Of a DNA stretch of 60,613 nucleotides, positions 4,223 to 60,613 are shown one piece after another. The position numbers and the translations under genes were made by a program. The stretch spans positions 64,673 through 125,285 of the forward strand of contig JAOAQX010000011.1 in the NCBI GenBank assembly GCA_025210805.1, read 5' to 3'. Origin of the DNA: Flavobacteriales bacterium (lineage in GTDB: Bacteria; Bacteroidota; Bacteroidia; Flavobacteriales; CAJXXR01). The notes below the pieces were generated by a model. It searched no databases and was not told the DNA's origin. It saw nothing but the letters and a program-made list of their open reading frames with translations. Position 1 is the stretch's first letter; the number at the start of each line of letters is the position of its first letter.

Positions 4223-4242
4223 AATTTTTTTCTGCTTAACGA

Positions 4243-7200
4243 TTAAAACTCAAAACTTACACCAACACGTATTGTTCTTGGAGACGAATATCTGTAAGGA
4301 TTATCTAAGCGTGTGTTATAAAAATCAACATAAGTGTTTCCTTGGTCTCCCAATGCATTAATTTTATCCTGACCTTGTGGAGAACTCAACCAACCATCAT
4401 CATTAGAATTACCTGTTGCTCTAAATACACTTAAAATATTTTCTGTATTTAATAAGTTTTGAACTCCAGCATAAACTCTCATTCCTATATCTTTCTTTCC
4501 CTCACGAGCAATCGTAAATCTTTTGGATAATGATAAATCAATATTGTACCTAAATGGTAGTCTTGAACCATTTACCGTACCTTTTATAGAAGGACTAGTA
4601 GCCGCTCCTGTTTCTTGTGAGGCATATGGTATTCCACCTAATGTATATGGACGTCCAGAAGCAACATTACCCAATAAAAATATAGACATTCCTTGCAAAA
4701 CATTTTTCAATTTCGCAGGACCATTATACGCATCCCCAGATGGGAAGCCATATCTAATTTGAGCTTTTAATGTATGTCTGGTGTCAAAACTTAATGGTAA
4801 TGTTTGTCGTAAATTAGGAATACCTGCTCGTATTAGACCAGCTGCCGTAGCAGAATTTGATCCTGTTCCATCAGCAAACTGTAATGTATAATTTGCTGTT
4901 AAACTTAAATTATCATTTTCACCTACTCTTTTTTCAAACTCTAAAGTAAATCCTTTTGTAGTACCGAAATCTCGATTATCGAATAGAGTATAAGAAATTG
5001 GATAAGCATTTGTTACTTGTGTAATCTGAATCATATCTCTTTGCTCTCGATAAAATGCAGATAATGAAATAGCAGAGATATCTGTTAACTTCTGTTTAAA
5101 ACCTACTTCGTAATTTGTGTTTTTTTGCATTTTCAAATCTGGATTTGCACTTGAACGAACACTTGTAGATCTACGGGCTATATCCAATATTTGACCAGGA
5201 TTAAAAATCCCATTCCCTGTCCCAGGTCTTTGAGTCAAGAGGTCATAATTTGCAAAAAACTTAGCTTCATCAGATATTGGGAAGTTAAATGCAATTCTTG
5301 GCATTACAACTACTTCTGGCTCATAATCAGTAAAAGCTTTATCTGTTACAAAAGAGTTTTTTACTAAACCGCCTTCTTTTGCATCTTCAGTAAGATATGG
5401 TATTGGTGACCCTGAAGCTCCTGCAATTTTCTGCAAATCTGTAACTCTATTACCCTGGGCATCATACCAGTTATCTCCATCTCGATAGGCTGTAATAGAT
5501 TTTGGATTATCTTCATCATCTACATACACAACAAAATCATCACCAATTGCACTTGGACGAGTCGCTCCAAATTTGTCAAAATTAACTTCTGAAGCAGTTC
5601 TTGCGTCATAAATAGTATATTTATCTTTAAGAACTGGCTGATTTGCATCGTATCTATCAACACGGATACCTACACTCAAAATCATATCATTGAATGTCAA
5701 TTTGTCTTGAATATATCCTGCAATATAAATTGGTTCAAATGCTGAAGTTTTTCTCGTTAATGTTCCATCTGCAAGAGAATCCGTAAGAAAATCGTTGAAA
5801 GTAGGTTGTGAACCTGTGATTTCATTTCCATATAAATCATATCCCAAACCAGAAGCTAAACCTTGATCGTAAATTTGTTCTTGACTAAATAAATCAATAC
5901 TCAAATCGTCAGGATTCATGGCATCTGTGTAAACAGGCTTATCATAACTTAATCCAAAACGGTCACGAACATTTTTGGCGTACCCTACAATTTGACTTTC
6001 CTCATATAATGGAATCGCATCTAATATTGCTTGATTCTGCTGGTTATATTCACCATTAAATTCATATTTATAATTAGCCCCAGATAAATGAGAGTTTTCA
6101 ACCAAACGAGCAACATTCCATAAATTAGACGCTCCTACATTATAAGTTTTATATGATCTCTGCTCAAATTCAAACCCCATCTTTAGGTTATGATTCCCGA
6201 TTGATCCTGATGTTGAACCAGTAAATCTAAATTGAGAAACTTTTTGTTTAAATCTAGACCCTGGGTTTATACCTACATTAGACCATAAAGACAGCAAAGA
6301 AGCAGGACTTGTACCATTTCTTACTCCTTGTGGCAAAGAATTGATTGATCCAGTTGTTAAAGGATTAGCAAAACCAAAATACTGTGATGCTAAATTTGCA
6401 TGATTTTCATTAATACTGCTAGGCGTAAATGAAAATGACTCTGGAGTTGCTCCCGCAAACCTTATAACATGAGAAAATGTACTATTGTCTGGAAAGGGCT
6501 CATCACTTGTAGATTGAATTCTTACCGTTTCTTCTTCTCCTGTGATTTTGTTAAATACCGTATATTCATTATTCCTGTAATTAAATGGAAGAAAAGCATC
6601 TCTTTGTTTTGGCGTAAATTTCCCTGCATAACCGTATCTAAAAAGATTATCTTCATGTTTAGGACTTTCTTGTGTTAAATTATTTAACGAATAGTCGGCA
6701 TGAAGTGTATACATTGCATCCTGAATAGTAGCCTTTTCACCATCCTCAGATTCATTCTGAAAAAATTGTTGAAAAGTGGCATAAGCACTAAGATTAGATG
6801 ATTTTGTCTTATATTCATAATCAGGATTGGCAAAAATCAAGGCTCTACTCATTTGATCCGTGTTATTTAAAGTAAAGGTCCCACCAACTTTTAGACGTGA
6901 ATATTCTCCCAACTTAACATCGAATTTGGTTTGAGAAGTTAATCCTAATGACGTAGCACCCTCCAAATGATCTAATTTTTCGATATCGGATGATCTTATA
7001 TAACTCAATGTAGGATTAACAATTGGTGCATTTGGATTCCCCGTGATAATTAACGGATTTTTTCTTGCATTATCTAATACCTCATCCTTAATTTTGTATA
7101 TATATCTAGATTGTGAATAATCTCCTTGATAAAGTAATTGCGCAGACGCAAAAACTCCAATTAATGGAATTTTAGCATCTTTATCTTTCCAAATAAGTGG

Positions 7201-7956
7201 AGTCGTAAAATATCCTCCTAATCTATTATACCCATAAGGGTCTAAGAATTGTGAGGTTTCAAAATCGATACCACCTGCTGTTACTGATGAAGGACCTCTC
7301 GTAACAACTGAAATAATCCCAGAAGCTCCATCTCCATATTCTGCAGGGACACCTCCAATAATTACATTCATCTGATCCAAGGCTTGCTGAGGAAGATTCA
7401 AACTTGATCCTCTCTGTTTCACTCCGTCAACAAAGTAAACAACTTCGCCACCTCGACCTCCTTTTACATTCAGACCACCATTTCTATCTGTTTGATCGAT
7501 ACCACTAGAACCTGAAGATGCTAATGCATTCAAGTTTCTAATTGGAGCTTCTTTGATTTTCTCAGCACTAATAGTCGTGATTTGCTCATCCTTAATTATA
7601 GGATCAACATGAGAGACTAGTTCAACCTCATCCATCAAACCTCCTTCTTGGAGAGCTGCATTAACATTGGTAATTCCCGTTGGAGTAATTATTACTCCAG
7701 CCTTTTTTATTGGAGAATAACCAACATATGAAATTTCCACATTATATGTTCCGGCATCAATACCATTTATTTGATAACGACCATCAATATCAGTGGCTGC
7801 ACCTTTTACAATAGTCTCTCCGTTTTTGACGACAATGTTCGCACCGATCAATGTTTCACCACTGGCAGCATCTGTAACCACACCTCGCAGGGTCTGTGCA
7901 AACGCACTAAAGGACAGCCCTGTAACTAAAAAAATTAAGAGTAGATTTCTCAGCAT
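4243..7956 (-). CDS. TonB-dependent outer-membrane receptor with carboxypeptidase-regulatory-like domain
   Basis: 1237 residues. A Sec signal peptide ends near residue 21 (SAFAQ). Residues ~22-105 form the Ig-like CarboxypepD_reg domain (LRGVVTDAASGETLIGANIVV). A plug domain follows to about residue 230 (GGLNVKGGRGGEVVYFVDGV), then a long beta-barrel ending in the outer-membrane signature VGVSFEF with C-terminal Phe. The length is typical of Bacteroidota receptors. The gene heads a two-gene unit with the T9SS cargo protein. A promoter with exact TTTG and a TAATTTTA box lies upstream. Substrate cannot be read from the sequence. No SusD partner is present, so it is not a classical SusCD glycan locus. 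Confidence 0.92.
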   Translation of the reverse strand: MLRNLLLIFLVTGLSFSAFAQTLRGVVTDAASGETLIGANIVVKNGETIVKGAATDIDGRYQINGIDAGTYNVEISYVGYSPIKKAGVIITPTGITNVNAALQEGGLMDEVELVSHVDPIIKDEQITTISAEKIKEAPIRNLNALASSGSSGIDQTDRNGGLNVKGGRGGEVVYFVDGVKQRGSSLNLPQQALDQMNVIIGGVPAEYGDGASGIISVVTRGPSSVTAGGIDFETSQFLDPYGYNRLGGYFTTPLIWKDKDAKIPLIGVFASAQLLYQGDYSQSRYIYKIKDEVLDNARKNPLIITGNPNAPIVNPTLSYIRSSDIEKLDHLEGATSLGLTSQTKFDVKLGEYSRLKVGGTFTLNNTDQMSRALIFANPDYEYKTKSSNLSAYATFQQFFQNESEDGEKATIQDAMYTLHADYSLNNLTQESPKHEDNLFRYGYAGKFTPKQRDAFLPFNYRNNEYTVFNKITGEEETVRIQSTSDEPFPDNSTFSHVIRFAGATPESFSFTPSSINENHANLASQYFGFANPLTTGSINSLPQGVRNGTSPASLLSLWSNVGINPGSRFKQKVSQFRFTGSTSGSIGNHNLKMGFEFEQRSYKTYNVGASNLWNVARLVENSHLSGANYKYEFNGEYNQQNQAILDAIPLYEESQIVGYAKNVRDRFGLSYDKPVYTDAMNPDDLSIDLFSQEQIYDQGLASGLGYDLYGNEITGSQPTFNDFLTDSLADGTLTRKTSAFEPIYIAGYIQDKLTFNDMILSVGIRVDRYDANQPVLKDKYTIYDARTASEVNFDKFGATRPSAIGDDFVVYVDDEDNPKSITAYRDGDNWYDAQGNRVTDLQKIAGASGSPIPYLTEDAKEGGLVKNSFVTDKAFTDYEPEVVVMPRIAFNFPISDEAKFFANYDLLTQRPGTGNGIFNPGQILDIARRSTSVRSSANPDLKMQKNTNYEVGFKQKLTDISAISLSAFYREQRDMIQITQVTNAYPISYTLFDNRDFGTTKGFTLEFEKRVGENDNLSLTANYTLQFADGTGSNSATAAGLIRAGIPNLRQTLPLSFDTRHTLKAQIRYGFPSGDAYNGPAKLKNVLQGMSIFLLGNVASGRPYTLGGIPYASQETGAATSPSIKGTVNGSRLPFRYNIDLSLSKRFTIAREGKKDIGMRVYAGVQNLLNTENILSVFRATGNSNDDGWLSSPQGQDKINALGDQGNTYVDFYNTRLDNPYRYSSPRTIRVGVSFEF

Positions 7957-7995
7957 AAACGTATTTTAAATTAATTATATCTACTGACAACTTGG

Positions 7996-8026
7996 TAAAA
8001 TTATACAAATCAAATAATTATTCAAA
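7996..8026 (-). promoter_or_regulatory. Predicted promoter of the TonB receptor operon
   Basis: Reading the minus strand, TTTG (8026-8023) is followed by 19 bases and TAATTTTA (8003-7996). This is one mismatch from the Bacteroidota TTTG-N19-TAnnTTTG consensus. The start codon is 40 bases downstream. Confidence 0.5.
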
Positions 8027-8122
8027 GCATTTTTTAACAATTTTTTAACGTAATTTTACTTAATCTAAGGTAACAATTCTTGTTATAGATCGTTTTAATA
8101 GCCTTAAAAACATTATTTTAAA

Positions 8123-8545
8123 ATGTTCAGAAAAATCTTTCTTCTTCCTTTTTTACTCTTAATTATTGCTTGCGATGACAATAATTTCAATCCGAATTTT
8201 CCTAAAAAAAATATTCAGTTAACTATTTACCCTGGTTCTGGTGCTTATTTTGATCTAGGAGCCATTGGTGGAAGCCTATTTCTAGAAGGTGGTGTCCGTG
8301 GACTTGTGGTGTATAGAGATGGCACAAATAGTTTTCAAGTATTTGATAGAGCTTGCCCTTATAATCCTCTAGATGATTGTGAAATTGTAGATTTTGAAAA
8401 AGAAAATAGCTTTAAGCTCATAGATAAATGTTGCGGGTCTCAGTTTCTAATAACCACAGGCGAGGTTCTCAATGGACCGAGTGAATTCAACTTACAACGA
8501 TATAATTATACCTTTGATGGAAATGAATTAAGAATCTGGAACTAG
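8123..8545 (+). CDS. Rieske-fold-like lipoprotein with altered ligand residues
   Basis: 140 residues. The signal peptide ends in a lipobox with Cys17 (LLIIAC). The C-terminal half follows the layout of Rieske-type proteins: FDRACPYN at ~74-81, then KCCGSQF at ~102-108, then GEVLNGPSEFNLQRYNY and a final strand. The usual Cys-x-His / Cys-x-x-His ligands are not kept: Tyr80 replaces the first His and Cys104 sits where the second His belongs. An ordinary 2Fe-2S cluster is therefore unlikely. It is probably a surface or periplasmic lipoprotein of unknown role. It is divergent from the TonB operon and 32 bases upstream of the next lipoprotein, which has its own promoter. Confidence 0.6.
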   Translation: MFRKIFLLPFLLLIIACDDNNFNPNFPKKNIQLTIYPGSGAYFDLGAIGGSLFLEGGVRGLVVYRDGTNSFQVFDRACPYNPLDDCEIVDFEKENSFKLIDKCCGSQFLITTGEVLNGPSEFNLQRYNYTFDGNELRIWN

Positions 8546-8552
8546 TTTTATT

Positions 8553-8560
8553 ACTTTTGC
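8553..8560 (+). promoter_or_regulatory. Bacteroidota -7 box upstream of LEA-like lipoprotein
   Basis: TACTTTTG matches TAnnTTTG and ends 17 bases before the ATG at 8578. No clear -33 element is visible. Confidence 0.45.
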
Positions 8561-8577
8561 ACAAAAATATAAGCCCA

Positions 8578-9042
8578 ATGAAAAAACTTCTTTTATCATT
8601 AGTACTTATTATAAGTATTATTTCTTGTGACGTAAATAAAGATCCAGAGTATAAAGGTCTAGGTAAAGTTAAAATCGAATCTATAAACGCAAAACACGCT
8701 ACACTTCTAGTGGATGCAAAATATTTTAACCCTAATGATCTTGGAGGAAAAATAGACCGTGTAGAAGTAGATGTATTGATCGATAACCGAAAAGTGGCAA
8801 CAGTAAATACTGCCAACTCTTTTGATGTTGAGGCAAAAAAAGATTTTACAGTTCCTATGCGTGTGAATATTCCCTTAAGTAAAATTTATGGGGAATCTAC
8901 AGGAATACTGGGTTCTGTTTTGAATGCCGTACAAAACAAAGAGATAAAAATTCAGTACAAAGGAAAATTAGTGTTCGATTTTGAGGCTTTTTTCTACACC
9001 CACGAAATGGATGATTCTATAGATTTTACGCTTAAAAAATAG
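8578..9042 (+). CDS. LEA type 2-like lipoprotein
   Basis: 154 residues from the ATG at 8578, chosen because it begins a standard lipoprotein signal (MKKLLLSLVLIISIISC). An upstream TTG in frame would overlap the promoter box. The mature part has the LEA_2/water-stress immunoglobulin-like pattern: a short beta domain with VKIESINAKHATLLVDAKYFNPN near the start, a central VDVLIDNRKVATV and a final FEAFFYTHEMDDSIDFTL. Proteins of this kind are common in Bacteroidota and have no assigned function. A strong terminator follows. Confidence 0.7.
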   Translation: MKKLLLSLVLIISIISCDVNKDPEYKGLGKVKIESINAKHATLLVDAKYFNPNDLGGKIDRVEVDVLIDNRKVATVNTANSFDVEAKKDFTVPMRVNIPLSKIYGESTGILGSVLNAVQNKEIKIQYKGKLVFDFEAFFYTHEMDDSIDFTLKK

Positions 9043-9080
9043 AGAACTTTCTAAAAAATATATCCTAATCAATCTAAAAA

Positions 9081-9120
9081 AGATTCAGGAAGAAGCATTA
9101 CGCTTCCTGGATCTTTTTTT
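9081..9120 (+). terminator. Rho-independent terminator
   Basis: An inverted repeat (AGATtCAGGAAG / CTTCCTGGATCT) with a short loop is followed by seven Ts. It ends the lipoprotein transcript. Confidence 0.85.
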
Positions 9121-9164
9121 ATCTACTAGCTCCAAAAGATCCTTTCTATAATAATGTAAGGCTA

Positions 9165-9172
9165 TAACTTTG
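9165..9172 (+). promoter_or_regulatory. Bacteroidota -7 box upstream of thioredoxin-like gene
   Basis: TAACTTTG matches TAnnTTTG, 55 bases before the ATG at 9228. The -33 region is weak. Confidence 0.45.
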
Positions 9173-9227
9173 TAAGTATTTTTAAAATAAACACACAAAG
9201 ACACAACAACCAATTAGAAAAAATAAA

Positions 9228-9812
9228 ATGAATACTTTAAAAAAGCACTTTGGAAAAGGAATGAGCTATGAGCAGTTTTATAAAGAACAAGAGTCTCTAG
9301 CGAAAGAAGGGAAAACATCTGGTGAACTTCAATTAGATAATCTAATTAACTATACCAAAATAAATGCCCAAAGAATGAGAAAGTGGGACAAAAGATACCA
9401 ACCTTCAGAAAATATTACAACTGCTGTGCAAAGCATCAATGAATCTGAAAAGTGGCTCCTACTCACGGAATCTTGGTGTGGCGATGCCGCTCAGGTTTTA
9501 GCACAGATTGCTAAAATAGCGAACAAAAATGAGAATATTGATTTAGAAATTCTCTATCGAGATGAAAATCTAGAATTGATGGATCAATTTTTAACCAACG
9601 GCGGGAGATCTATTCCAAAACTCATTCGGGTGAATTCTGAAACTGGTGAATTAATTAATCATTGGGGACCAAGAACTGCTCAAGCTAGCGAAATTGTAAA
9701 GCGAAATAAAGAAATGGGGCAACCTTATGACAAAGAACTCCACCTTTGGTATGCAAAACATGTGAATGAAAGTTTTGAAGAAGAATTCAAAAAAACAATA
9801 GACAACAACTAA
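9228..9812 (+). CDS. Thioredoxin-like family protein, single active-site cysteine
   Basis: 194 residues, no signal peptide, so cytoplasmic. The N-terminal ~60 residues are helical (MSYEQFYKEQESLAKEGK). The thioredoxin fold follows with LLLTESWCGDAAQVLAQI, where Cys84 is the only cysteine of the usual CxxC site, and a cis-Pro loop RSIPKLI. This matches the Thioredoxin_9-type family common in Bacteroidota, where a single Cys suggests a monothiol or non-redox role. It stands alone between two terminators. Confidence 0.8.
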   Translation: MNTLKKHFGKGMSYEQFYKEQESLAKEGKTSGELQLDNLINYTKINAQRMRKWDKRYQPSENITTAVQSINESEKWLLLTESWCGDAAQVLAQIAKIANKNENIDLEILYRDENLELMDQFLTNGGRSIPKLIRVNSETGELINHWGPRTAQASEIVKRNKEMGQPYDKELHLWYAKHVNESFEEEFKKTIDNN

Positions 9813-9890
9813 GTTATTTATTAAATTTGCTTGAAAGTCAAACGTCACAATTTATTCTTATAGGGTTATCTCTCGCAAATAACCCCAAAA

Positions 9891-9927
9891 AGCTTCCGAA
9901 AAAAAATCATTCGGGAGCTTTTTTTTT
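9891..9927 (+). terminator. Rho-independent terminator
   Basis: Arms AGCTTCCGA (9891-9899) and TCGGGAGCT (9911-9919) are followed by a run of eight Ts. A smaller hairpin, GGTTAT/ATAACC, lies just before it. Confidence 0.85.
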
Positions 9928-9997
9928 AGATATTAAAACTCACATTCTCTAAAATCTAATTGTGATTTTCCTTTGCACGGGTTCTAATTTTTCCACT

Positions 9998-10005
9998 TAC
10001 CTTTG
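9998..10005 (+). promoter_or_regulatory. Bacteroidota -7 box of the copper ATPase gene
   Basis: TACCTTTG matches the consensus. It ends only 7 bases before the chosen ATG, so the mRNA would have almost no leader. Confidence 0.5.
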
Positions 10006-10012
10006 CCCCATT

Positions 10013-12400
10013 ATGGAGGAAAAGAAAGCAAAAGAATGTTATCATTGTGGAAGCCCATGTGAGGATATCATTGTTGAAGATAAAAAGAACTTTTGTTGTA
10101 CAGGTTGTGTATCTGTTTACAAGATTCTCAATGAATCGGATATGTGCGAATTCTATGATTTGTCTGATAAAAATAAGTTTCAAGCACAAATAGAAGATCA
10201 ATCCAAGTTTGCTTTCCTAAAAGAAGAAAAAGTTGCCAATTCGCTTTTGATGTTTAAAGATCAAAACTTTGCACAAGTAGAGTTTTATATTCCCAATATT
10301 CATTGTAGTTCTTGTATTTGGCTCTTAGAAAATCTTCAAAAACTCGATGAGAGTATTAGTTGGTCTAGGGTGAATTTTACTAAAAAAATGGTTCACATTC
10401 AGTTCAAACATCAAGAAATTGACTTATTTAGACTTGTAAATCTCCTCAATCATATTGCATACGCTCCAAAAATCACACTTGACTCAAAAGATAATAAAAA
10501 AGATGATTCCAAAAAGAAAAAGCTCTACAAACTAGGAATTGCAGGTTTTTTCTGGGGAAACATTATGTTTCTTGCCTTACCTGAGTACTTAACAGATAAT
10601 TGGGTTAGTCACAATGATTTGCGAATGTTTTTTCAATATCTCAGTGGTTTTTTTGCCATTCCAGTCATGTTTTATTCGGGTTGGGAATACTTTGAATCTG
10701 CCTACAAAGGAATTCGTTCAAAATATGTCAATATAGATTTCCCTATTGCCTTAGGACTTATCGTTATTTTCTTGAGGAGTTGGTATGAAGTAATTTCTCA
10801 AACAGGAACTGGATATTTTGATTCGCTAACTGCCTTAGTGTTTTTTCTTTTGCTGGGTAAAATGTTTCAAGACAGAACCTATCATTTTCTTTCTTTTGAC
10901 AGAGATTATAAATCCTATTTCCCCATTGCCGTTACCAAAATATTTAAAGACGGAATCGAAAAAAACATTCCCTTGGGAGAGGTAACTGAAAAAGATCTTC
11001 TTCTCATTCGTAATGACGAAATAGTTCCTGCAGATAGTATTTTATCAAAAGGTGAAGCCTATATAGACAATAGTTTTGTTACAGGGGAATCTACTTTAAT
11101 ACAAGTAGAAGTAGGTGATAAAATATTTGCAGGAGGAAGGCAAAAAGGCGCTTCTATTGAAGTCATTGTAGAAAATGTGGTGGACCAAAGTTATTTAACA
11201 AAACTATGGAGCCATGATATTTTTCAAAAAAATACGCAAAAGAATATCCAAAGTTTTACAGATCGCATTAGTAAATATTTCACGCTTGTAGTATTGCTCA
11301 TTGCCACCATTGCCTTTATGTTTTGGTTTCCAAAAGACCCAGGTGGAGCCTTTCAAGTAGTTGCCGCCGTCTTGATAGTTGCTTGCCCATGTGCACTAGC
11401 ACTGGCAGCTCCGTTTACACACGGAAATATTCTTTCTTGGTTTTCTAGAAACAAACTCTTTGTAAAAGATGCGCTCTCTGTAGAAAGAATGAGCGAGGTT
11501 ACCGATATTGTTTTTGATAAAACAGGAACACTCACCATCTCCAATGAAAAAGATATCAGTTGTTCTCAAGAAGAAATAGAAAAGGATACACTGGGTGTTC
11601 TCAAAACCATTACCAGACAATCCAACCACCCTGTGGGAAGAATGATTTATGATTTTCTTCCCGAAGCTTCATTAATTCGTCCAGATTCTTTCGTGGAAGC
11701 CTCAGAGCAAGGTGCAACACTTATTTTTCAAGGAAAAGAATATAAACTGGGCTTACCTACTTACCTAGAAATGGATTTAGGCAGAGAACAGAATAAAACC
11801 CGACTTTATTGGTCTGTTGATGGTGAAATTGGTGGTTTTTTTCAAATTCATAATCATTATAGAGCTGATATGAAAAAAGTGATGGAATCCTTAAAGAAGG
11901 ATTATCGACTTCATATTCTCTCGGGTGACAATGAAGGTGAAAAAGAGCGTTTGGATCAGATGCTTGGAAAACACGTAAAACTCAATTTTAATCAAAGTCC
12001 TCACGAAAAACTAGAATATATTCAAGGTTTACAACAAAAAGGAAGAAAAATTGCCTTTATTGGCGATGGACTCAATGATGCAGGAGGGCTACAGCAAAGC
12101 GAATTTGGGATGAGCATTTCTGAGAACATCAACAGTTTCTCCCCTGCTTGCGATGCCATTTTGGATGCCGAAAAATTTCAGAAATTCACCCAATTTATGA
12201 GGCTCAGCAGAATTTCGAAAAAAATTATCTACGCAAGTTTTGTATTTTCATTTGCCTATAATATTGTTGGATTAGCATTTGCCATAGCAGGAAAACTCTC
12301 TCCTATTGTTTCGGCGATACTCATGCCCATTAGCTCTATTTCTATAGTGGTCTTCGTAACCTTATTGAGTACTTATTGGGCAAAGAAGGTTTTGAGGTAA
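10013..12400 (+). CDS. ccoI: Heavy-metal (copper) P1B-type ATPase, CcoI/FixI type
   Basis: 795 residues from the ATG at 10013, preferred over an upstream in-frame start because it follows the -7 box and begins the family's Cys-rich head. Domain order: N-terminal metal-binding segment (CYHCGSPC and FCCTGC, residues ~9-32), HMA domain with HCSSCIW (Cys98, Cys101), membrane helices, actuator loop (VTGEST), membrane CPC motif (ACPCALALA), phosphorylation site DKTGTLT, nucleotide-binding SNHPVG and hinge GDGLNDA. In known systems such pumps deliver copper for cbb3 oxidase assembly. The usual partners ccoS and ccoNOP are not beside it here. Confidence 0.88.
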   Translation: MEEKKAKECYHCGSPCEDIIVEDKKNFCCTGCVSVYKILNESDMCEFYDLSDKNKFQAQIEDQSKFAFLKEEKVANSLLMFKDQNFAQVEFYIPNIHCSSCIWLLENLQKLDESISWSRVNFTKKMVHIQFKHQEIDLFRLVNLLNHIAYAPKITLDSKDNKKDDSKKKKLYKLGIAGFFWGNIMFLALPEYLTDNWVSHNDLRMFFQYLSGFFAIPVMFYSGWEYFESAYKGIRSKYVNIDFPIALGLIVIFLRSWYEVISQTGTGYFDSLTALVFFLLLGKMFQDRTYHFLSFDRDYKSYFPIAVTKIFKDGIEKNIPLGEVTEKDLLLIRNDEIVPADSILSKGEAYIDNSFVTGESTLIQVEVGDKIFAGGRQKGASIEVIVENVVDQSYLTKLWSHDIFQKNTQKNIQSFTDRISKYFTLVVLLIATIAFMFWFPKDPGGAFQVVAAVLIVACPCALALAAPFTHGNILSWFSRNKLFVKDALSVERMSEVTDIVFDKTGTLTISNEKDISCSQEEIEKDTLGVLKTITRQSNHPVGRMIYDFLPEASLIRPDSFVEASEQGATLIFQGKEYKLGLPTYLEMDLGREQNKTRLYWSVDGEIGGFFQIHNHYRADMKKVMESLKKDYRLHILSGDNEGEKERLDQMLGKHVKLNFNQSPHEKLEYIQGLQQKGRKIAFIGDGLNDAGGLQQSEFGMSISENINSFSPACDAILDAEKFQKFTQFMRLSRISKKIIYASFVFSFAYNIVGLAFAIAGKLSPIVSAILMPISSISIVVFVTLLSTYWAKKVLR

Positions 12401-38956: not shown

Positions 38957-39180
38957 AATCACATAAAATATAACAAAAGTTAAAATCAATAAATGTAATT
39001 AGGGAAAGTGGGTACTCACCTGCCCCGCCATTAAAGTCTTTATTACTTTTAAGGATAAGAAGATAAATCTAATCAAGCGTTAATAGCTATTTAGTAGCTT
39101 GACAGCTAACCTCGCTTAAATACCTTACTAATCTTAGCCTTCGTAGGTATTAGTCTTTGGGAAATTTCGTTGTAGTAAAC

Positions 39181-39229
39181 CCTCTTTCCCCTCCCGAAAA
39201 ATCGGGACAAGCTATTCAAAGGGGGTTTA
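39181..39229 (-). repeat. Palindromic C-rich/G-rich dispersed repeat, copy
   Basis: Contains CCTCCCGAAAAATCGGGA followed by CAAGCTATTCAAAGGGGG. This is the reverse of the block found at 48081-48125 and 55683-55730. Confidence 0.8.
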
Positions 39230-39252
39230 TATCTATGAGTAGGTTAGTATTC

Positions 39253-48045: not shown

Positions 48046-48265
48046 ACCATTTATGGTGTTAATTTACACACTGTCATAAGCCCCCTTGTGAAGAGCTTGT
48101 CCCGATTTTTCGGGAGGAAAAAGGGATGTTCACAAAGTAAACACCTCCGAAAAAGAAACGATAAAAATGTTATTCGATTATGAAACAAGATGCACCATCC
48201 CCCTTTCCCTCACGAAAAGTTGGGAAGGTTTATACCAGTGTGTAAATTAATACCGCAAATGATCT
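48046..48265. repeat. MITE-like element with terminal inverted repeats
   Basis: About 220 bases without a gene. The ends are imperfect inverted repeats of ~28 bases: ACCATTTATGGTGTTAATTT and TTACACACTG on the left; CAGTGTGTGTAAATTAATACC reversed on the right. Inside are the palindrome TCCCGATTTTTCGGGA (48100-48115) and a block (48124-48203) repeated inverted at about 60377-60458. The 321 bases from 48029 to 48349 hold only this element and a terminator. Confidence 0.7.
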
Positions 48266-50176: not shown

Positions 50177-51451
50177 ATGATACTATACATACGTTTAAAA
50201 AACTTTTACTCGATTAAAGACGAGGTTGTGTTAGATATGCAGGCTGCAAATATCCGAGGGGAAAGAGCTCAAAAATTATCAAATAATATTGTCAAAAAAC
50301 AAAAACACAATATCCTTAAAACGGCGGTAATTTATGGTGCGAATGCTTCAGGTAAATCAAATGTTATAAAAGCAATTAGGCAATGCTGCGGGTATGTTTT
50401 CAGCTCTCATAATTTTAATGAAAATACATTTTTTGACTATGAGGTGTTTAAATTTCAAAAAGAAAGTCAGCCCAGTGAGTTTCAAATGTGTTTTATGATT
50501 GATGAAGTAGAATTTGATTATTCTTTTTCCTTATCCAAAACACAAATTATTTCTGAAAAATTATACTATTACCCTAAAGGTAGAAAAGCAAAAATTTTTG
50601 AGAGAAATGAGTTGAAGTCAGGTAAGAAAAATGATATTTACAACTTCGCTAGCGTCATTAAACGCCCAATGGATGTTGCGATAAACACTTCAAAAAAGAA
50701 TCTATTTATCTCCCGTGCAAGTCAAATGGATCGGGAAATTCCAAAACAAATTTTTCATTTTTTTCATTCAACATTTATTCTCGGCTATCAAGGTTATAAT
50801 GCTTCTTCGGTTGAGCAATTGTTTCACAATAATAAAAAATTTTTATTGGAGGGTTTGAGAATCGCAGACAGCGACATTGTCGATATCATCATTCATAAAG
50901 AGTTGGTTCCCAATACAAGATTTACTTTTGACCCCTTAGAGGATATTCAAAAACCAAAGGTAGATTTTGGTATAGAAGAACATCTAAAAATAAGTACTTT
51001 TCACAAATCGAACCCATCTATTTCTTTTGATTTCAATACTGAAGAGTCTCAGGGAACGAAAAAATTATTTTTTATTCTTTTAAGCATCATTGATATTATT
51101 CAGAATAACAAGATATTACTTATTGATGAAATTGAAGATAGCCTTCACTCTAAAATTGTGGAATTTATTATCCAGTTGTTACACAAATCAAAACAAAGCC
51201 AACTAATTTTCACAACGCACAATACAAATCTTTTGGACTTAGATTTATTGAGAAAAGATCAAATAAATTTTGTTCACAAAAATGAATCAGGAAGTACCGA
51301 ACTCTATTCTTTAATTGATTTTAAAGACTTCAGAGACAATATGAACCCAGAAAAAGGATACCTTCAAGGACGTTTTGATGCGGTACCTATAATAGATTTA
51401 GAAGAATCATTAATAGATAAAATATCAAATAATGGCAAGAAAAAAGAATAA
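50177..51451 (+). CDS. AAA15/RloA-like ATPase of an AbiL-type defence pair
   Basis: 424 residues. ABC/SMC-like ATPase of the COG1106 type: Walker A GANASGKS (54-61) straight after the first strands, an inserted helical middle, Walker B with LLIDEIEDSLHS near residue 313 and FTTHNTNLLD after it. It overlaps the RloB-like gene by 20 bases. Such ATPases paired with TOPRIM-type partners form abortive-infection systems (AbiL; related in design to PARIS and OLD systems). Known biology suggests phage sensing by the ATPase and damage by the partner. The activity here is inferred. Confidence 0.8.
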   Translation: MILYIRLKNFYSIKDEVVLDMQAANIRGERAQKLSNNIVKKQKHNILKTAVIYGANASGKSNVIKAIRQCCGYVFSSHNFNENTFFDYEVFKFQKESQPSEFQMCFMIDEVEFDYSFSLSKTQIISEKLYYYPKGRKAKIFERNELKSGKKNDIYNFASVIKRPMDVAINTSKKNLFISRASQMDREIPKQIFHFFHSTFILGYQGYNASSVEQLFHNNKKFLLEGLRIADSDIVDIIIHKELVPNTRFTFDPLEDIQKPKVDFGIEEHLKISTFHKSNPSISFDFNTEESQGTKKLFFILLSIIDIIQNNKILLIDEIEDSLHSKIVEFIIQLLHKSKQSQLIFTTHNTNLLDLDLLRKDQINFVHKNESGSTELYSLIDFKDFRDNMNPEKGYLQGRFDAVPIIDLEESLIDKISNNGKKKE

Positions 51452-51992
51452 AGCGAGATCCATGAACCCAACATATTTTGTGTTTTGTGAAGGTGATACA
51501 GAAAAGGAATATATCAAAATTTTGAAAAAACAATTCAGACATATCCCTATCGAAATAAAAGAAAAAATAGAAGGAAATCAAATAAATACAAGAAAAGTTG
51601 TTGATATCATTCAAGAGAAAGGATTGTATCTAAAGAATAAAGATAAAGTATTCTTACTCTATGATATTGATGTTCCCAAAATGTTAGAAAAACTTCTAAA
51701 AGTAAAAGATGCCATTTTGTTAGTAAGTAATCCTTGTATAGAATTTTGGTTTTTACTACACTGTGAAGCTCAAAATGCACACATTTCAACTTCCAATGCT
51801 ATTAAGAAATTAGAAAAAAACTGGAAGAATTACAAGAAAGGAAAGCTCACAGAACAGATGGCGAAAATCTTGCAGAATAATCAAAAGCAAGCAATTTTGA
51901 AAGCAAAAAAACTAAAAGCGCATTCAAATCCATCATCTACTATTTATAGAATAATCGAAATCTTATCTGAAAAAAGAATAAGTACAAATTAA
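51432..51992 (+). CDS. RloB-like (AbiLii-type) TOPRIM-fold effector
   Basis: 186 residues. TOPRIM-like signature FVFCEGDTEKEYIKIL (Glu20, Glu24) and a second acidic pair LLYDIDVPK (Asp78, Asp80), then the RloB hallmark NPCIEFWFLLH. The N-terminus is basic (MARKKNKARS). TOPRIM proteins in such pairs act as nucleases when released by their ATPase. It begins inside the ATPase gene (20-base overlap), so the pair is co-translated. Both residue pairs look intact. Confidence 0.82.
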   Translation: MARKKNKARSMNPTYFVFCEGDTEKEYIKILKKQFRHIPIEIKEKIEGNQINTRKVVDIIQEKGLYLKNKDKVFLLYDIDVPKMLEKLLKVKDAILLVSNPCIEFWFLLHCEAQNAHISTSNAIKKLEKNWKNYKKGKLTEQMAKILQNNQKQAILKAKKLKAHSNPSSTIYRIIEILSEKRISTN

Positions 51993-55659: not shown

Positions 55660-55745
55660 GGGGGATTGTAGTTAATAATAATCCCCCTTTCGAATAGCTT
55701 GTTCTGATTTTTCGGAAGGGAAGGGGGATGTTATACAACGTAAAC
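55660..55745. repeat. Palindromic C-rich/G-rich dispersed repeat, left flank of the CRISPR locus
   Basis: GGGGGATT (55660-55667) pairs with AATCCCCC (55680-55687). Then CCCCCTTTCGAATAGCTTG, a decayed TCTGATTTTTCGGAA palindrome, GGGAAGGGGGATGTT and a second small inverted pair GATGTT/AACATC (to ~55749). The same blocks occur at 39181, 48081 and 60207-60613. No T-run follows, so it is not a clear terminator for icmF. Confidence 0.75.
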
Positions 55746-55757
55746 ATCCTGCTTGGC

Positions 55758-55790
55758 TTTGATTGAAATATTGCGAATGCCTAATATTTG
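55758..55790 (+). promoter_or_regulatory. Candidate promoter of the CRISPR array
   Basis: TTTG (55758-55761) is followed, after 20 bases, by TAATATTTG (55782-55790), which lies inside the degenerate first repeat and is one base longer than TAnnTTTG. Transcription would begin near 55797 and run through the array. Confidence 0.4.
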
Positions 55791-56334
55791 AAGCGGAAAC
55801 ACAACTATTTTCTTATATTTTGTGTTGCTGGTGTGTGTTGTGAATACCTTATATTTGAAGTGGAAACACAACAAGATTTGGACAGTTTGACACGTCAAGG
55901 TGGTTGTGAATACCCTATATTTGAAGTGGAAACACAACTTTCAAATCATAAATATCTTTATACCCCTTGTTGTGAATACCCTATATTTGAAGTGGAAACA
56001 CAACTTACTGAAGACTATTCTTGTAAAATCTGACGTTGTGAATACCCTATATTTGAAGTGGAAACACAACTGTAGCAAGTGTCTGATTTGTATTTATCCC
56101 GTTGTGAATAACCTATATTTGAAGTGGAAACACAACTTTATTCGAGCTTTTAAGAAATGCGTATCGGTTGTGAATACCCTATATTTGCAGTGGAAACACA
56201 ACGTTGATAGCACTTGTTATTCTCAAAGGAATGTTGTGAATACCCTATATTTGCAGTGGAAACACAACTGGTTTTTAATCTTTAGACTTTCATCAACGGT
56301 TGTGAATACCCTATATTTGCAGTGGAAACACAAC
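55770..56334 (+). CRISPR. Type VI-B CRISPR array, 8 repeats plus 1 degenerate repeat
   Basis: 36-base repeats begin at 55837, 55903, 55969, 56035, 56101, 56167, 56233 and 56299. Spacers are all 30 bases. A degenerate repeat (55770-55805, six mismatches) and a 31-base T/G-rich gap precede them. Ends GTTGTG and CACAAC are inverse complements and would close the crRNA hairpin, as in known VI-B repeats. Repeats starting at 55837 to 56101 read TTTGAAGTGG; the last three read TTTGCAGTGG. The 55837 and 56101 copies have one further mismatch each. Sense is plus, from repeat ends, terminator position and VI-B crRNA form (spacer 5', repeat 3'). Confidence 0.96.
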
Positions 56335-56345
56335 CCAAACGAACA

Positions 56346-56383
56346 ACATCCTAGAGGAAATAAGACTTCTAGGATGTTTTTTT
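56346..56383 (+). terminator. Rho-independent terminator closing the CRISPR array
   Basis: ACATCCTAGA (56346-56355) pairs perfectly with TCTAGGATGT (56368-56377), followed by Ts to 56383. It separates the array transcript from cas13b. Confidence 0.88.
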
Positions 56384-56440
56384 ACGTAAATAGGATTAAA
56401 AAAATGGGGAAAAGCAAGTATGAATTATTATTAACTGAAT

Positions 56441-56471
56441 CTTGAAAATCAATAAAAAAGCACTAAATTAG
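56441..56471 (+). promoter_or_regulatory. Candidate promoter of cas13b
   Basis: CTTG (56441-56444), 19 bases, TAAATTAG (56464-56471), each one base off consensus with exact spacing. ATG 30 bases downstream. Confidence 0.45.
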
Positions 56472-56500
56472 TACAGATACAATTATAGATAATCAATAAT

Positions 56501-59500
56501 ATGCAAGAACAAAAAAACACAAATACTTATCTGTTTGAAGAAACAGAGAGTAAGCACTTTTATGCTGGAATATTTAATAATTTCCGACATAATTGGGAGA
56601 TGGCTTGGTCGTCCATCGCTCAGGAATTTCAACTACCTATAAACACTCAATACCCTGAAGATTTAAGAGGCATCAAGGATAAGTCAATCAATTTTTCTTT
56701 AACAGATTGGGAGCGATTTATCAATAAACTTTCTTATTTCTTCCCCTTTGTTTCTTATTTGCCCAAAAAGAAAGAAGATCACGAGGAATTTTGGAAAATA
56801 ATAAATGCCATTAACAAAATTTCTAACGAGTATAGAAATTACAGCTCTCATTATCACAGGGTTTTAAAAGTAGAATGTGAAGAGTTCCAAAAAGCATTGG
56901 AACTTATTACTCCAATATTGGACGACCTGTTTATAAAAGCAATTCTTCATACTTGTCATCAAAGAAAACAAAGCAAAGAACAAATAGAATTTTTTAGAGA
57001 TAAATATAAAGAAGATTTCAATGAAATTCTAATCGAAGCTAATGAAAGGCTAGAAAAGAAAAACAAAGATCCGATTCGTAAAGAAGACGAATACAACTTT
57101 GTATTTAACCATTTAAAAAGAAGATATATAGAAGAAAAAGAGGATAAAACTCTTATTCTCAGAAAGGCAAAATTTGAAGATGGTTTTCTTAAAGCCGATG
57201 CTTTTTTACTCTTTGTTTCCTTTGGACTATCCAAAAGGGAGTTTCAATACCTTTTGAGTCATACCAAATATTACAAAGCAAATCATAAATTACCCTATGC
57301 ATTTACCCAATGGGCGTTGGGGCAGTATTGTTTTAGACAACCTAAAAGCATGCTCAATAGTGCATTTTCAAAGGATGCTTTACTATTGCAAATAGCGGAA
57401 GAATTTAGCAAATGTCCAAAGGAGATTTATGAGCATCTAAGTAGTGAAGATCAATATGAATTTTTTGAAGCTACCAATCGCTATGAGGTAGAGCAAAGCA
57501 ATAAAAATGTGAAAAGTATCTCTGAGTTCGAAATTGAACACGATATTACCAGAGTAAGATATCGAGATAGATTTGCCTATTATGCCATCAGGTATTTGGA
57601 TGAGTTTGTTTTTAAAGACAAAATTCGTTTTCAAGTGAATGTAGGCGTTTATCGTCATGATAAAACAAACAAGGAAAATGATTATTTTTCAACGGATAGA
57701 GTAATTGATGAAAAATTGTTTGTTTTTGAGAAATTATCAGAAGTACAAAGAATCAAAGATCAATACTTTGAAAATAAAGATATAGAGGATTCTTTGGGTT
57801 GGAGACCTTATCCCAATGCTCATTATCAGTTTCATAAAAACAATATAGCGGTTTGGGTTTCAGGATTAGAGGAAGAAACAGATAGTAAACCTAAAAAAAG
57901 AAAACGCCCACCTAAATCAGAATTATTAGAAGAGTTAAAACTCGAGCAATTTAAAAGAAAAGCATGTTTTTATTTAAGTCTCAATGAACTTCCACAATTG
58001 CTTTATTATGTTCTCGTTAAGAAAAAATCAGAGAAGATAATTCATGATATTTTAAAGAACAAAATCCAACATAAAAAAGACAATATTCTCACTGAAGAGC
58101 AGCTTAATTCAAAAAAAATGCGTGGTTTTCAAAAGGGAGATCAGGTATTTTTAAAAGATAAACTGGTAAATCGCATTAAGATTGAACTGAATGAAAATCA
58201 TTCAATCATAGATAAAATTAGGAAAGACTATTCTGACAATAAGATAATCCAAGCAGAGGAAAAAGGCTTAACTAATGTAGAAAAAGGTAAAGTAGCCGTT
58301 TTACTTACCAAAGATATCCGTCGATTTACAAGAAAAGATGCCCGTAAGGACTGGAAAGGTTGGCAGATTGCAGAATTGCAAAGGTATTTTGCGTTCTATG
58401 ATAGATACCGCAATGAATTGGCAGGATATTGCAAGGAGGTTTTGGAAATTCATAATGAGTTAAGCACTTTGTTTCCTATTTTTAATTTTCAAGCTAAGGA
58501 TTTGTTTGAGTTTCTAAAAAATTATGAAAAACAGAAGAATAAATACCTAACAAAGCTTCTAAAGTATGATATAGATAATATTACGATTGATCATCCTATT
58601 TTTGATGCTTTTCCAAAACGAATTTATTATGCCGACAAAAAGGACTATTTAAAAAATGTAAAATCGCATCCCGTATTTTTAGATAGAGGAATTTTTGATG
58701 ACAAACATCCTACTGCGGGAAATGGAAAAGATTTTGTTTCAAAAAATAAATTCTTCACCTTTACTCAAGAGGCACTAAAAAGCAAACAGAAATTCTATGA
58801 TTTTACGAGGATTTACCCATTTCCTGATGAAAGAAATAAGGTAGAACTTACTCAAGAAACCAATTCTATATCCGACGTTTGTGGAAAACCTAAACAAGGA
58901 ACTCCACAATATCTTGCCAAAGGAGCCATCTATAAAAACGAGAAAAGAATTAGAGAAATTCAAAGGCAAGATGCTATTTTATTGGAGATTATTAAAAAAG
59001 AACATAATAGCGAGCATTTAAAACTAGCGGAAACATTCTACACCAAAGAAGAAAAGGAAGTTAACGCGAGAGGAAAAGGTAAGTCTATTCTTGCTAAAAA
59101 AATCACTGTTAGTCTAGTTGATGGGAAACTCAAAATTAAATGTGCTTTAAAAGACCTTCGGAAATACAAAAGGTTAGAAAGAGATAGCAGAGTAAAGACG
59201 CTAGCAACCTATCAAGACAAATCAATAACCAGAGAGGAATTAGATCAAGAATTAGCGGATTATGAAAAAGTTAGGTTTGAGGAGATGTTTTATCAAATTT
59301 TTAAGCTTGAGAAAAAAATATTTTCTTGTCATTTGGATGGGGCTAAAAAAAAGATGGAAACCGAGCCTAATTTTAAAAAAGAAGTGTATGAATACATCAA
59401 CAGCAAGAATATAAAAAGCTACAATTCAGAGGAAACTAATTCACTTAAAAGCAATACTTTAATAAGAGATGAAATCTTAATTAAAATTCTTATTGAAATA

Positions 59501-59650
59501 AGAAATAGATTTGCTCATAATCAGCTACCAAACAAAGCTTATTTTGAACAAAGCAATAAATTATATAAAAAAGACGAAAAAGAAACTTTTAGTACTTATT
59601 ATTTAAAAGTAACAGAGAAGATTTGCAATTGGTTAATTAATTTGAAATAG
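56501..59650 (+). CDS. cas13b: Cas13b, RNA-guided RNase of type VI-B CRISPR
   Basis: 1049 residues, within the range of known Cas13b. Two HEPN RNase motifs of the RxxxxH type sit near the two ends, the Cas13b arrangement: Arg112-His117 (RNYSSH) and Arg1001-His1006 (RNRFAH). The middle has a basic stretch near 465-475 (PKKRKRPPK) followed by FYLSLNELPQLLYYVL near 490, matching the region around the lid that handles the crRNA. Both active sites look intact. It binds crRNA, cuts target RNA and then nearby RNA. A 176-residue gene follows after 9 bases. Codon use and AT content do not stand out from neighbours. Confidence 0.96.
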   Translation: MQEQKNTNTYLFEETESKHFYAGIFNNFRHNWEMAWSSIAQEFQLPINTQYPEDLRGIKDKSINFSLTDWERFINKLSYFFPFVSYLPKKKEDHEEFWKIINAINKISNEYRNYSSHYHRVLKVECEEFQKALELITPILDDLFIKAILHTCHQRKQSKEQIEFFRDKYKEDFNEILIEANERLEKKNKDPIRKEDEYNFVFNHLKRRYIEEKEDKTLILRKAKFEDGFLKADAFLLFVSFGLSKREFQYLLSHTKYYKANHKLPYAFTQWALGQYCFRQPKSMLNSAFSKDALLLQIAEEFSKCPKEIYEHLSSEDQYEFFEATNRYEVEQSNKNVKSISEFEIEHDITRVRYRDRFAYYAIRYLDEFVFKDKIRFQVNVGVYRHDKTNKENDYFSTDRVIDEKLFVFEKLSEVQRIKDQYFENKDIEDSLGWRPYPNAHYQFHKNNIAVWVSGLEEETDSKPKKRKRPPKSELLEELKLEQFKRKACFYLSLNELPQLLYYVLVKKKSEKIIHDILKNKIQHKKDNILTEEQLNSKKMRGFQKGDQVFLKDKLVNRIKIELNENHSIIDKIRKDYSDNKIIQAEEKGLTNVEKGKVAVLLTKDIRRFTRKDARKDWKGWQIAELQRYFAFYDRYRNELAGYCKEVLEIHNELSTLFPIFNFQAKDLFEFLKNYEKQKNKYLTKLLKYDIDNITIDHPIFDAFPKRIYYADKKDYLKNVKSHPVFLDRGIFDDKHPTAGNGKDFVSKNKFFTFTQEALKSKQKFYDFTRIYPFPDERNKVELTQETNSISDVCGKPKQGTPQYLAKGAIYKNEKRIREIQRQDAILLEIIKKEHNSEHLKLAETFYTKEEKEVNARGKGKSILAKKITVSLVDGKLKIKCALKDLRKYKRLERDSRVKTLATYQDKSITREELDQELADYEKVRFEEMFYQIFKLEKKIFSCHLDGAKKKMETEPNFKKEVYEYINSKNIKSYNSEETNSLKSNTLIRDEILIKILIEIRNRFAHNQLPNKAYFEQSNKLYKKDEKETFSTYYLKVTEKICNWLINLK

Positions 59651-59659
59651 AAAACACCC

Positions 59660-60190
59660 ATGTCAGCAATAGAACAATATTATCAAGAAATCTGTAATCA
59701 AAACCGAATCCGTTTAAAAGTGGTTGGAGATGATTTTGCGGGAGATTTTATTGGCGGTGGTGCAGGAAGAGTCTTCACAAAAACCTATTATTTTCAGAAA
59801 GAATACAAGGATTTAAAAATTGAATTCAAACAAGCATTTGGAAGTACAAATCTCTCTGAGGGAATGTGTAATTTATCCAATACACCAGGGATTTATGCGT
59901 TCTCAGTAAAAACAAAAAGTCTATTTTCTTCTTGGTTTTCTAAAGACAAAAACCGATTGCAAATACTGTGTAAAAACGAAGTTTTTGCAAAAAGAATCCA
60001 AGAATTACTGGTAGAATCTGGGATCGAGGACTTAATGAATGATTTTCCGCTTGAGCCCATGATTGAGTTAAGCTTTGAGGATAATAATTGGCAATTGAAC
60101 ACCCGCCACAGCCTACATTTTGCCAATAAAGAAAAGATTTTCTTTCCTTTTTATCGATTTTATGTGCTTTTGATAGATGAGTTGTATTAA
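59660..60190 (+). CDS. Unknown 176-residue protein in tandem with cas13b
   Basis: Not recognised. Begins MSAIEQYYQEICNQNRIRLK; has a Gly-rich turn (FAGDFIGGGAGRVF), a mixed strand/helix middle (FSVKTKSLFSSWFSKDK, EVFAKRIQELLVESGIEDL) and an aromatic end (FFPFYRFYVLLIDELY). No signal peptide and no convincing membrane helix. No RxxxxH HEPN motif; the nearest is RHSLH with three intervening residues. It therefore does not look like Csx27 or Csx28, the known VI-B accessories, which are membrane or HEPN-like. The 9-base gap suggests co-transcription and a possible role in Cas13b immunity, or simply an unrelated passenger. Confidence 0.7.
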   Translation: MSAIEQYYQEICNQNRIRLKVVGDDFAGDFIGGGAGRVFTKTYYFQKEYKDLKIEFKQAFGSTNLSEGMCNLSNTPGIYAFSVKTKSLFSSWFSKDKNRLQILCKNEVFAKRIQELLVESGIEDLMNDFPLEPMIELSFEDNNWQLNTRHSLHFANKEKIFFPFYRFYVLLIDELY

Positions 60191-60206: not shown

Positions 60207-60613
60207 TAAGCTTTCTTTTGAGTAGTTTGTCCCGAAAATTCGGGTGGTGGGATATTCTCAATGTAACAATCTCGGACAAAAAATGTAATTCGACTATCAA
60301 ACTGATAGGAACTCCCCCTTCCCTCCCGATAAATCGGGACAAGCCTGAAATTAAAATCCCCCTTTGAAGGGGGGAAGGGGGATGTTGCATCTTGTTTAAT
60401 AATCGGATAGCATTTCTTTAGTTTCTTTTTATAGGTGGTGTTCACTTTGTGTAACATCCCCCCTTCCCCCTTCAAAGGGGGATTTGCATGTAAGCACCCT
60501 CGAAAAGAAAATTAAAAAAATGCAATTCGACTTTCGAACTGGTCATTACATCTCCTTAACCCTCCCGAAAAGTCAGAACAAGCCTGAAATTAAAATCCCC
60601 CTTTGAAGGGGGA
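60207..60613. repeat. Cluster of C-rich/G-rich palindromic dispersed repeats at the right edge
   Basis: No gene in these 400 bases. At least three copies of a ~80-base unit: about 60251-60320 (plus), 60377-60458 (minus) and 60478-60552 (plus), sharing AATTCGACTATC/AATTCGACTTTC and AACATCCCCC-type ends. They are separated by palindromes such as TCCCGATAAATCGGGA and by CCCCCTTTGAAGGGGG. The cluster runs off the window. Confidence 0.8.

Follow-up and report, generated by a model that had tools for sequence, protein, structure and literature searches.

What feeds a CRISPR array that has an effector gene beside it but no adaptation genes, and in which direction is such an array read? The question is raised by a window of 60,613 nucleotides from a Flavobacteriales bacterium (throughout, "the window" means this whole stretch of DNA), which carries an array directly upstream of a gene for Cas13b (Table 1). 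The explanation that we favour, with a probability of roughly 60%, is that this is a minimal type VI-B system which would be fed with spacers by a type II-C system in the same genome and whose array would be read toward its growing end.

Table 1. Features at and around the Cas13b locus (positions in the window)
Feature	Position	Strand	Remarks
Dispersed intergenic repeat, left flank of the array	55678..55746		Covers most of the left flank; ~24 bp remain before the array (blastn matches at 39165-39230, 48076-48143 and the copies in 60313-60613)
Dispersed intergenic repeat, other copies	39165-39230, 48076-48225, 60278-60613		All copies, that at 55678-55746 included, are CCCCCTTTGAAGGGGG palindromes (blastn)
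Repeat starts	55770, 55837, thereafter each 66 bases		Final copy 56299-56334
First repeat, degenerate	55770..55805	+	Six substitutions against the consensus; hairpin predicted lost
Eight spacers	55806..56298	+	31 nt for the first, then 7 x 30 nt; separated by the nine repeats
Eight intact repeats, GTTGTGAATACCCTATATTTGMAGTGGAAACACAAC	55837..56334	+	36 nt; C at position 22 in the final three
Array-cas13b gap	56335..56500		Putative leader (growing end)
Terminator hairpin and T7	56345-56384	+	Terminator scan
Poly-A	~56398		Between array and cas13b
Likely cas13b promoter	56464		TTG-N19-TAAATTAG (motif)
cas13b	56501..59650	+	1049 aa, two HEPN RxxxxH motifs
176-aa ORF	59660..60190	+	Starts 10 nt after cas13b; no family match

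The Cas13b gene and its neighbourhood

The first-pass annotation, made from the sequence alone, had identified Cas13b from the array, its repeats and spacers and the terminal RxxxxH motifs of the 1049-residue protein, and profile searches agree. The NCBIfam model NF038190 (VI_Cas13b) matched with 504.9 bits, against a cut-off of 150 bits, over profile positions 2-1065 of 1066; PADLOC also called the effector Cas13b (501 bits), and the closest solved structure was that of Bergeyella zoohelcum Cas13b (6aay, E 1e-45). The protein contains two RxxxxH motifs and no more, both near its ends: RNYSSH (residue 112) and RNRFAH (residue 1001). The R and H of both are invariant across six aligned Cas13b proteins. 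Judged by its genes, the locus is a genuine type VI-B locus with an array and a full-length Cas13b, and, as expected for the family, the protein would cut RNA via its paired HEPN motifs upon pairing with phage mRNA.

The placement of the protein in a Cas13b tree, which had been suggested as a check, grouped it with the proteins of Mesonia hippocampi (L048), Sporocytophaga sp. (L049) and genome G147 (L051) with a support of 100/99 in a tree of only eight sequences; these three are its nearest relatives, with 26-27% identity, and it forms a long branch whose identity to the other sequences reaches 27-28% at most. None of the scanned neighbours of these three cas13b genes was csx27 or csx28, as here, whereas the array lies downstream of cas13b in the three relatives and upstream in the present genome. 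A two-sequence Cas13b profile found only two relatives, and Cas13b had no match in plasmids and phages; the genomes covered were samples of 395 from the same order and 395 from the same class.

No cas1, cas2, csx27 or csx28 gene was found near the Cas13b locus, as the first-pass annotation had observed for the window, and the Csx27 and Csx28 models had no match in the whole assembled genome (3.12 Mb, 99.9% complete). The positive controls for these models were genomes G425 and G617 (313 and 146 bits), picked because the standard control genomes lack Csx27 and Csx28. The last base of the window is the last base of its contig (C11), 423 bases past the last ORF, and the contig break falls within the dispersed intergenic repeat. 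Subtype VI-B1 is defined by csx27, which is inconsistent, and VI-B2 by csx28, which is universal; since neither gene is in the assembled genome, the locus is by gene content not VI-B2 and at most VI-B1-like. The first-pass annotation had treated the absence of these genes as unusual, a view that the literature does not support. VI-B loci generally have no adaptation module, cas1 and cas2 being elsewhere in most hosts, and csx27 is present inconsistently in VI-B1 loci (PMC8209922). The VI-B locus of Flavobacterium columnare has the same gene set as the present one, namely Cas13b alone without csx27, csx28, cas1 and cas2, and its genome likewise has a type II-C locus elsewhere (PMC8092290). The missing genes thus cease to be surprising, as such absence is common in VI-B and a donor system is present in the same genome.

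The ORF of 176 codons that follows cas13b could be thought a new accessory in place of Csx27 or Csx28, given that it lies on the same strand with tight spacing and that its product matches no family. It is a separate ORF, although the span given for the locus in the first-pass annotation (55770-60190) includes it. Among the 395 genomes sampled from the order, a sole homologue was found (26% identity). It is in the only other genome of the same family, in which no Cas13b was detected (83% complete), and it adjoins a gene resembling an Lrp-type regulator and stands beside unrelated genes; no homologue was found in any further genome of the order that has Cas13b. The single-sequence structure model of the protein had a pLDDT of 39.5, too low to be of use. 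An accessory role is very improbable, and the ORF, which is probably a neighbour rather than a replacement for Csx27/Csx28, is not treated as a cas gene. On the other side of the locus, directly upstream of the gene that precedes it, genes for an AAA_21 ATPase (424 aa) and an RloB-like protein (186 aa) at 50177-51992 form a likely anti-phage pair.

A type II-C system as the probable donor of spacers

The search for cas1 and cas2 in the rest of the genome gave a single cas1 match, on contig C33, inside a complete type II-C locus which contains cas9, cas1, cas2, an anti-repeat of the tracrRNA, and an array in which a 48-nt repeat occurs 24 times with spacers of 30 nt. Its Cas9 (1413 aa) has RuvC and HNH motifs, and residues E148, H204 and E219 of its Cas1 correspond to E149, H206 and E221 of the Riemerella anatipestifer protein. 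The anti-repeat, AGAATCAATTCACAAT, lies upstream of cas9 and is complementary to the II-C repeat at 14 of 16 positions, which fixes the II-C crRNA strand, the repeat reading GTTGTGAATTGATTCC... on it. A contig break divides the II-C array, one part of which closes C33 while the other opens contig C9 (L003 15002-15637 and L041 1-1308). Two further features of this array were seen: its oldest repeat is interrupted by a 52-bp insertion (L041 1261-1360, G000:C9), and each 48-nt repeat carries, in the crRNA direction, TTG-N19-TATTTTTA, a sequence close to a Bacteroidota promoter, which would be in keeping with transcription from promoters inside the repeats, a feature of other II-C arrays.

The first nine bases, GTTGTGAAT, are common to the crRNA-strand repeat of the II-C array and the + strand repeat of the VI-B array; in the II-C array, whose leader was placed by homology, they form the leader-distal end. 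It is very likely that the Cas13b locus is a minimal and apparently intact VI-B locus that depends on the II-C Cas1-Cas2 elsewhere in the genome for its spacers. New spacers of 30 nt would be inserted by these proteins on the cas13b side of the array. Of the two possibilities raised by the first-pass annotation, that the array must be old or else is fed from elsewhere, the second fits the complete II-C locus, while the first is not indicated, since the last three repeats are identical and share a derived variant, like recent additions.

Such feeding in trans has been demonstrated in F. columnare, in which the VI-B array gains spacers through the II-C Cas1 (PMC8092290); in the present genome it is inferred. 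The two species resemble each other in that a GTTGT end is common to the repeats of both arrays and that the leader, a putative one in the present genome, contains poly-T and poly-A, but both repeats are 36 bp in F. columnare, whereas the II-C repeat here has 48 nt, 12 more than the VI-B repeat, which counts against trans-feeding. In R. anatipestifer, which has a similar length difference (47 nt for II-C against 36 nt for VI-B), 30-nt II-C spacers like those here and, likewise, a II-C leader between cas2 and the first repeat, the VI-B array appears static and gained no spacers in a test in which the II-C array did, according to two reports (PMC5006608; PMC6008519). In a comparison of nine species with a II-C system and a VI-B system without cas1 and cas2, the II-C repeats averaged 11 bp longer in all but F. 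columnare (PMC8092290). With repeats of 48 and 36 nt that share the GTTGTGAAT end, the present genome fits this species pattern in its sequence features.

Array anatomy and the crRNA strand

The array, nine 36-nt repeats with eight spacers at 55770-56334, is as the first-pass annotation described it (36-base repeats, 30-base spacers), except for a first spacer of 31 nt. The repeats have GTTG and CAAC ends and are predicted to form a hairpin, and their + strand profile score is within the range of real VI-B repeats; no second site for the repeat (at most three mismatches) was found elsewhere in the genome. A single private change is present in repeat 2 and another in repeat 6, while the last three are identical to each other, with A22C in common and no private changes. 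The first repeat has a predicted folding energy of -1.4 kcal/mol, against -6.7 kcal/mol for the consensus. Every intact repeat contains on the + strand a perfect TATATTTG, a box of the Bacteroidota -7 type (TAnnTTTG) that is present in none of the relatives' repeats. A promoter encoded in the VI-B repeat was considered and kept only as an idea, the -33 element being inconsistently placed relative to TATATTTG.

All eight spacers were searched against phage and metagenome sequences, as had been proposed, with no convincing result: the exact 20-24-nt cores had no match in IMG/VR, and blastn against 50,697 phage records gave no convincing target. The best matches, of 23/24 to a Listeria-labelled 3.2-kb contig (E 0.01) and of 24/25 to a 484-kb uncultured phage (E 0.004), were taken as chance hits of AT-rich 30-mers.

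Plain identity did not tell which strand makes crRNA. The present repeat agrees with that of Mesonia at 22 of 36 positions on either strand, and with that of Riemerella at 25 or 24 positions depending on the strand; the Riemerella letters used are consistent with what has been published on its repeat ends and variant positions. A position profile built on the repeats of six relatives, only six in number, scored 26.8 bits on the + strand and 11.6 on the - strand; with each relative left out in turn it found the right strand in 6/6 cases, at 24.6-38.8 bits for the right and at most 9.6 for the wrong one. The spacers gave a second test. On the crRNA strand, the spacers of the relatives are pyrimidine-rich (mean purine fraction 0.449 over 61 spacers from six VI-B arrays; t = -4.0), which is what one expects of guides antisense to purine-rich mRNA, while the II-C spacers are unbiased (0.49). 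The present spacers have a purine fraction of 0.43 on the + strand, corresponding to a ln likelihood ratio of 5.5 for + over -, a statistic in which the spacers of one array are not mutually independent, and leave-one-out assignment by this bias was right in 6/6 relatives. As the strand of the relatives was itself assigned by a TTTG loop and by co-orientation with cas13b, both tests measure consistency with the relatives. The relatives' arrays are co-oriented with cas13b, and so is the present one if read on the + strand; the array is directly followed by a strong + strand terminator (a 13-bp hairpin with T7). Taking repeat profile, spacer bias and cas13b strand together, the crRNA strand appears to be +, and the crRNA would consist of a spacer followed by GTTGTGAATACCC...CAAC. 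The purine-bias test needs no protospacers and could be applied to other VI-B arrays.

Some features nevertheless speak for the - strand. There the repeat carries a conserved 3' end, GGGTATTCACAAC, which the Mesonia repeat (L048) shares and which published variants indicate for Riemerella; it folds slightly better (-8.4 kcal/mol, against -6.7 on the + strand), and the newer A22C adds a pair. These features suit an arrangement like that of F. columnare, in which transcription runs from leader to array: crRNA would then come from the - strand, read from a leader between array and cas13b, with spacers fed by the II-C system, a repeat core that is merely unusual and a polarity that is not new. Such an arrangement is improbable, as the - strand has no TTTG loop at positions 18-21, where 7/7 relatives have one, and its 11.6 bits are just over the wrong-strand maximum of 9.6 and far under the 24.6-38.8 of the right strands. 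It would also require purine-rich spacers, contrary to 6/6 relatives, and would make array and cas13b divergent, unlike those of the relatives.

The growing end and the polarity of the array

Several features distinguish the two ends of the array. In the informative relatives (L048, L053, L055 and L052), the first of which is the Mesonia locus, decayed repeats are at the 3' end on the crRNA strand, whereas in the present array it is the 5'-most repeat that has decayed, its outer bases changed most. Position 22 of the repeat is A or G in the relatives, and the derived C is found only in the three repeats next to cas13b. The GTTGTGAATACC end of the repeat is leader-distal in Mesonia (L048), where its reverse complement, GGTATTCACAAC, has decayed to GGTATTTACAAT. 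The flank between array and cas13b resembles the II-C leader when the two are compared in register (banded score 13, reached in 16 of 2000 shuffles and in 0 of 87 rotations), although an unrestricted alignment, equalled in 237 of 1000 shuffles, was not significant; the left flank scored 6 in register, as did 850 of 2000 shuffles. The elements in register are a hairpin, a poly-T at about +42, then a poly-A. Repeat decay, the derived variant, the repeat end shared with II-C and the II-C-leader-like sequence all point to growth on the cas13b side, as does the occupation of the left flank by the dispersed repeat. Folding the right-end repeat on the - strand or the left-end repeat on the + strand together with its flank revealed no leader-repeat hairpin, of which the Mesonia locus has a part.

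The decay of the leftmost repeat might also mean that growth has ended. The array would then be read from the + strand, with a leader on the left that was destroyed by the dispersed repeat and a leader-proximal repeat that has since decayed. The dispersed element does make up much of the left flank, the leftmost repeat is the decayed one, and a VI-B array that appears static is known from R. anatipestifer. We regard a frozen array as unlikely, since the repeats next to cas13b are uniform and carry the derived allele, opposite to what the oldest repeats of the relatives look like, and since the in-register likeness to the II-C leader is on the right flank and not on the left.

A + crRNA strand combined with growth on the cas13b side means that the array is transcribed toward its growing end. 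It is thus fairly probable, on these comparisons, that the polarity of adaptation is flipped with respect to the crRNA strand, so that the II-C Cas1-Cas2 would insert at the transcript's 3' end, while the oldest repeat, at its 5' end, is inactivated rather than masked by a hairpin. Cas13b would make spacer-repeat crRNAs from a + strand transcript running as far as the terminator upstream of cas13b, and cas13b would be driven by a promoter of its own. The oldest and first-transcribed repeat would otherwise yield a useless crRNA, and the loss of its hairpin may prevent this. Other VI-B systems mask the crRNA of the first repeat by a leader-repeat hairpin (PMC13187072), and II-C systems often mutate the first-transcribed repeat (PMC12080349). 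As the first repeat is mutated here and its hairpin predicted to be lost, the array seems to have adopted the II-C solution to the extraneous crRNA. It resembles II-C arrays in growing at the last-transcribed repeat and in having a mutated first-transcribed extra repeat, the difference being that those arrays serve Cas9 and a tracrRNA and this one Cas13b (PMC12080349).

What may be new is thus the polarity of the array, opposite to that of the VI-B arrays of known direction; in F. columnare, for one, the array is transcribed from the leader (PMC8092290), while here transcription seemingly runs toward it. No published VI-B array of such polarity was found in the open-access literature. If the proposed polarity is correct, the VI-B and II-C crRNAs that derive from one acquisition event would have the same strand, whereas in F. 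columnare their strands are opposite, and the genome would be a natural case of an RNA-targeting and a DNA-targeting array reading one spacer in the same sense. It would also follow that the polarity of Cas1-Cas2 is not tied to the Cas13b crRNA strand.

One of the relatives differs in how it might acquire spacers. At a Cas13b locus in a genome of the same class (L052; G740:C90:1-10801; features at 694-3009, 2939-3307, 3763-4620 and 6772-10296), a reverse transcriptase-Cas1 fusion of 772 aa with RVT_1 and Cas1 domains and a Cas2 stand beside a VI-B-type array with spacers of 31-37 nt. In a survey of 2019, RT-Cas1 adjoined Cas13a only and none of 236 Cas13b genes (PMC6753606). A VI-B system of this kind may possibly acquire RNA-derived spacers.
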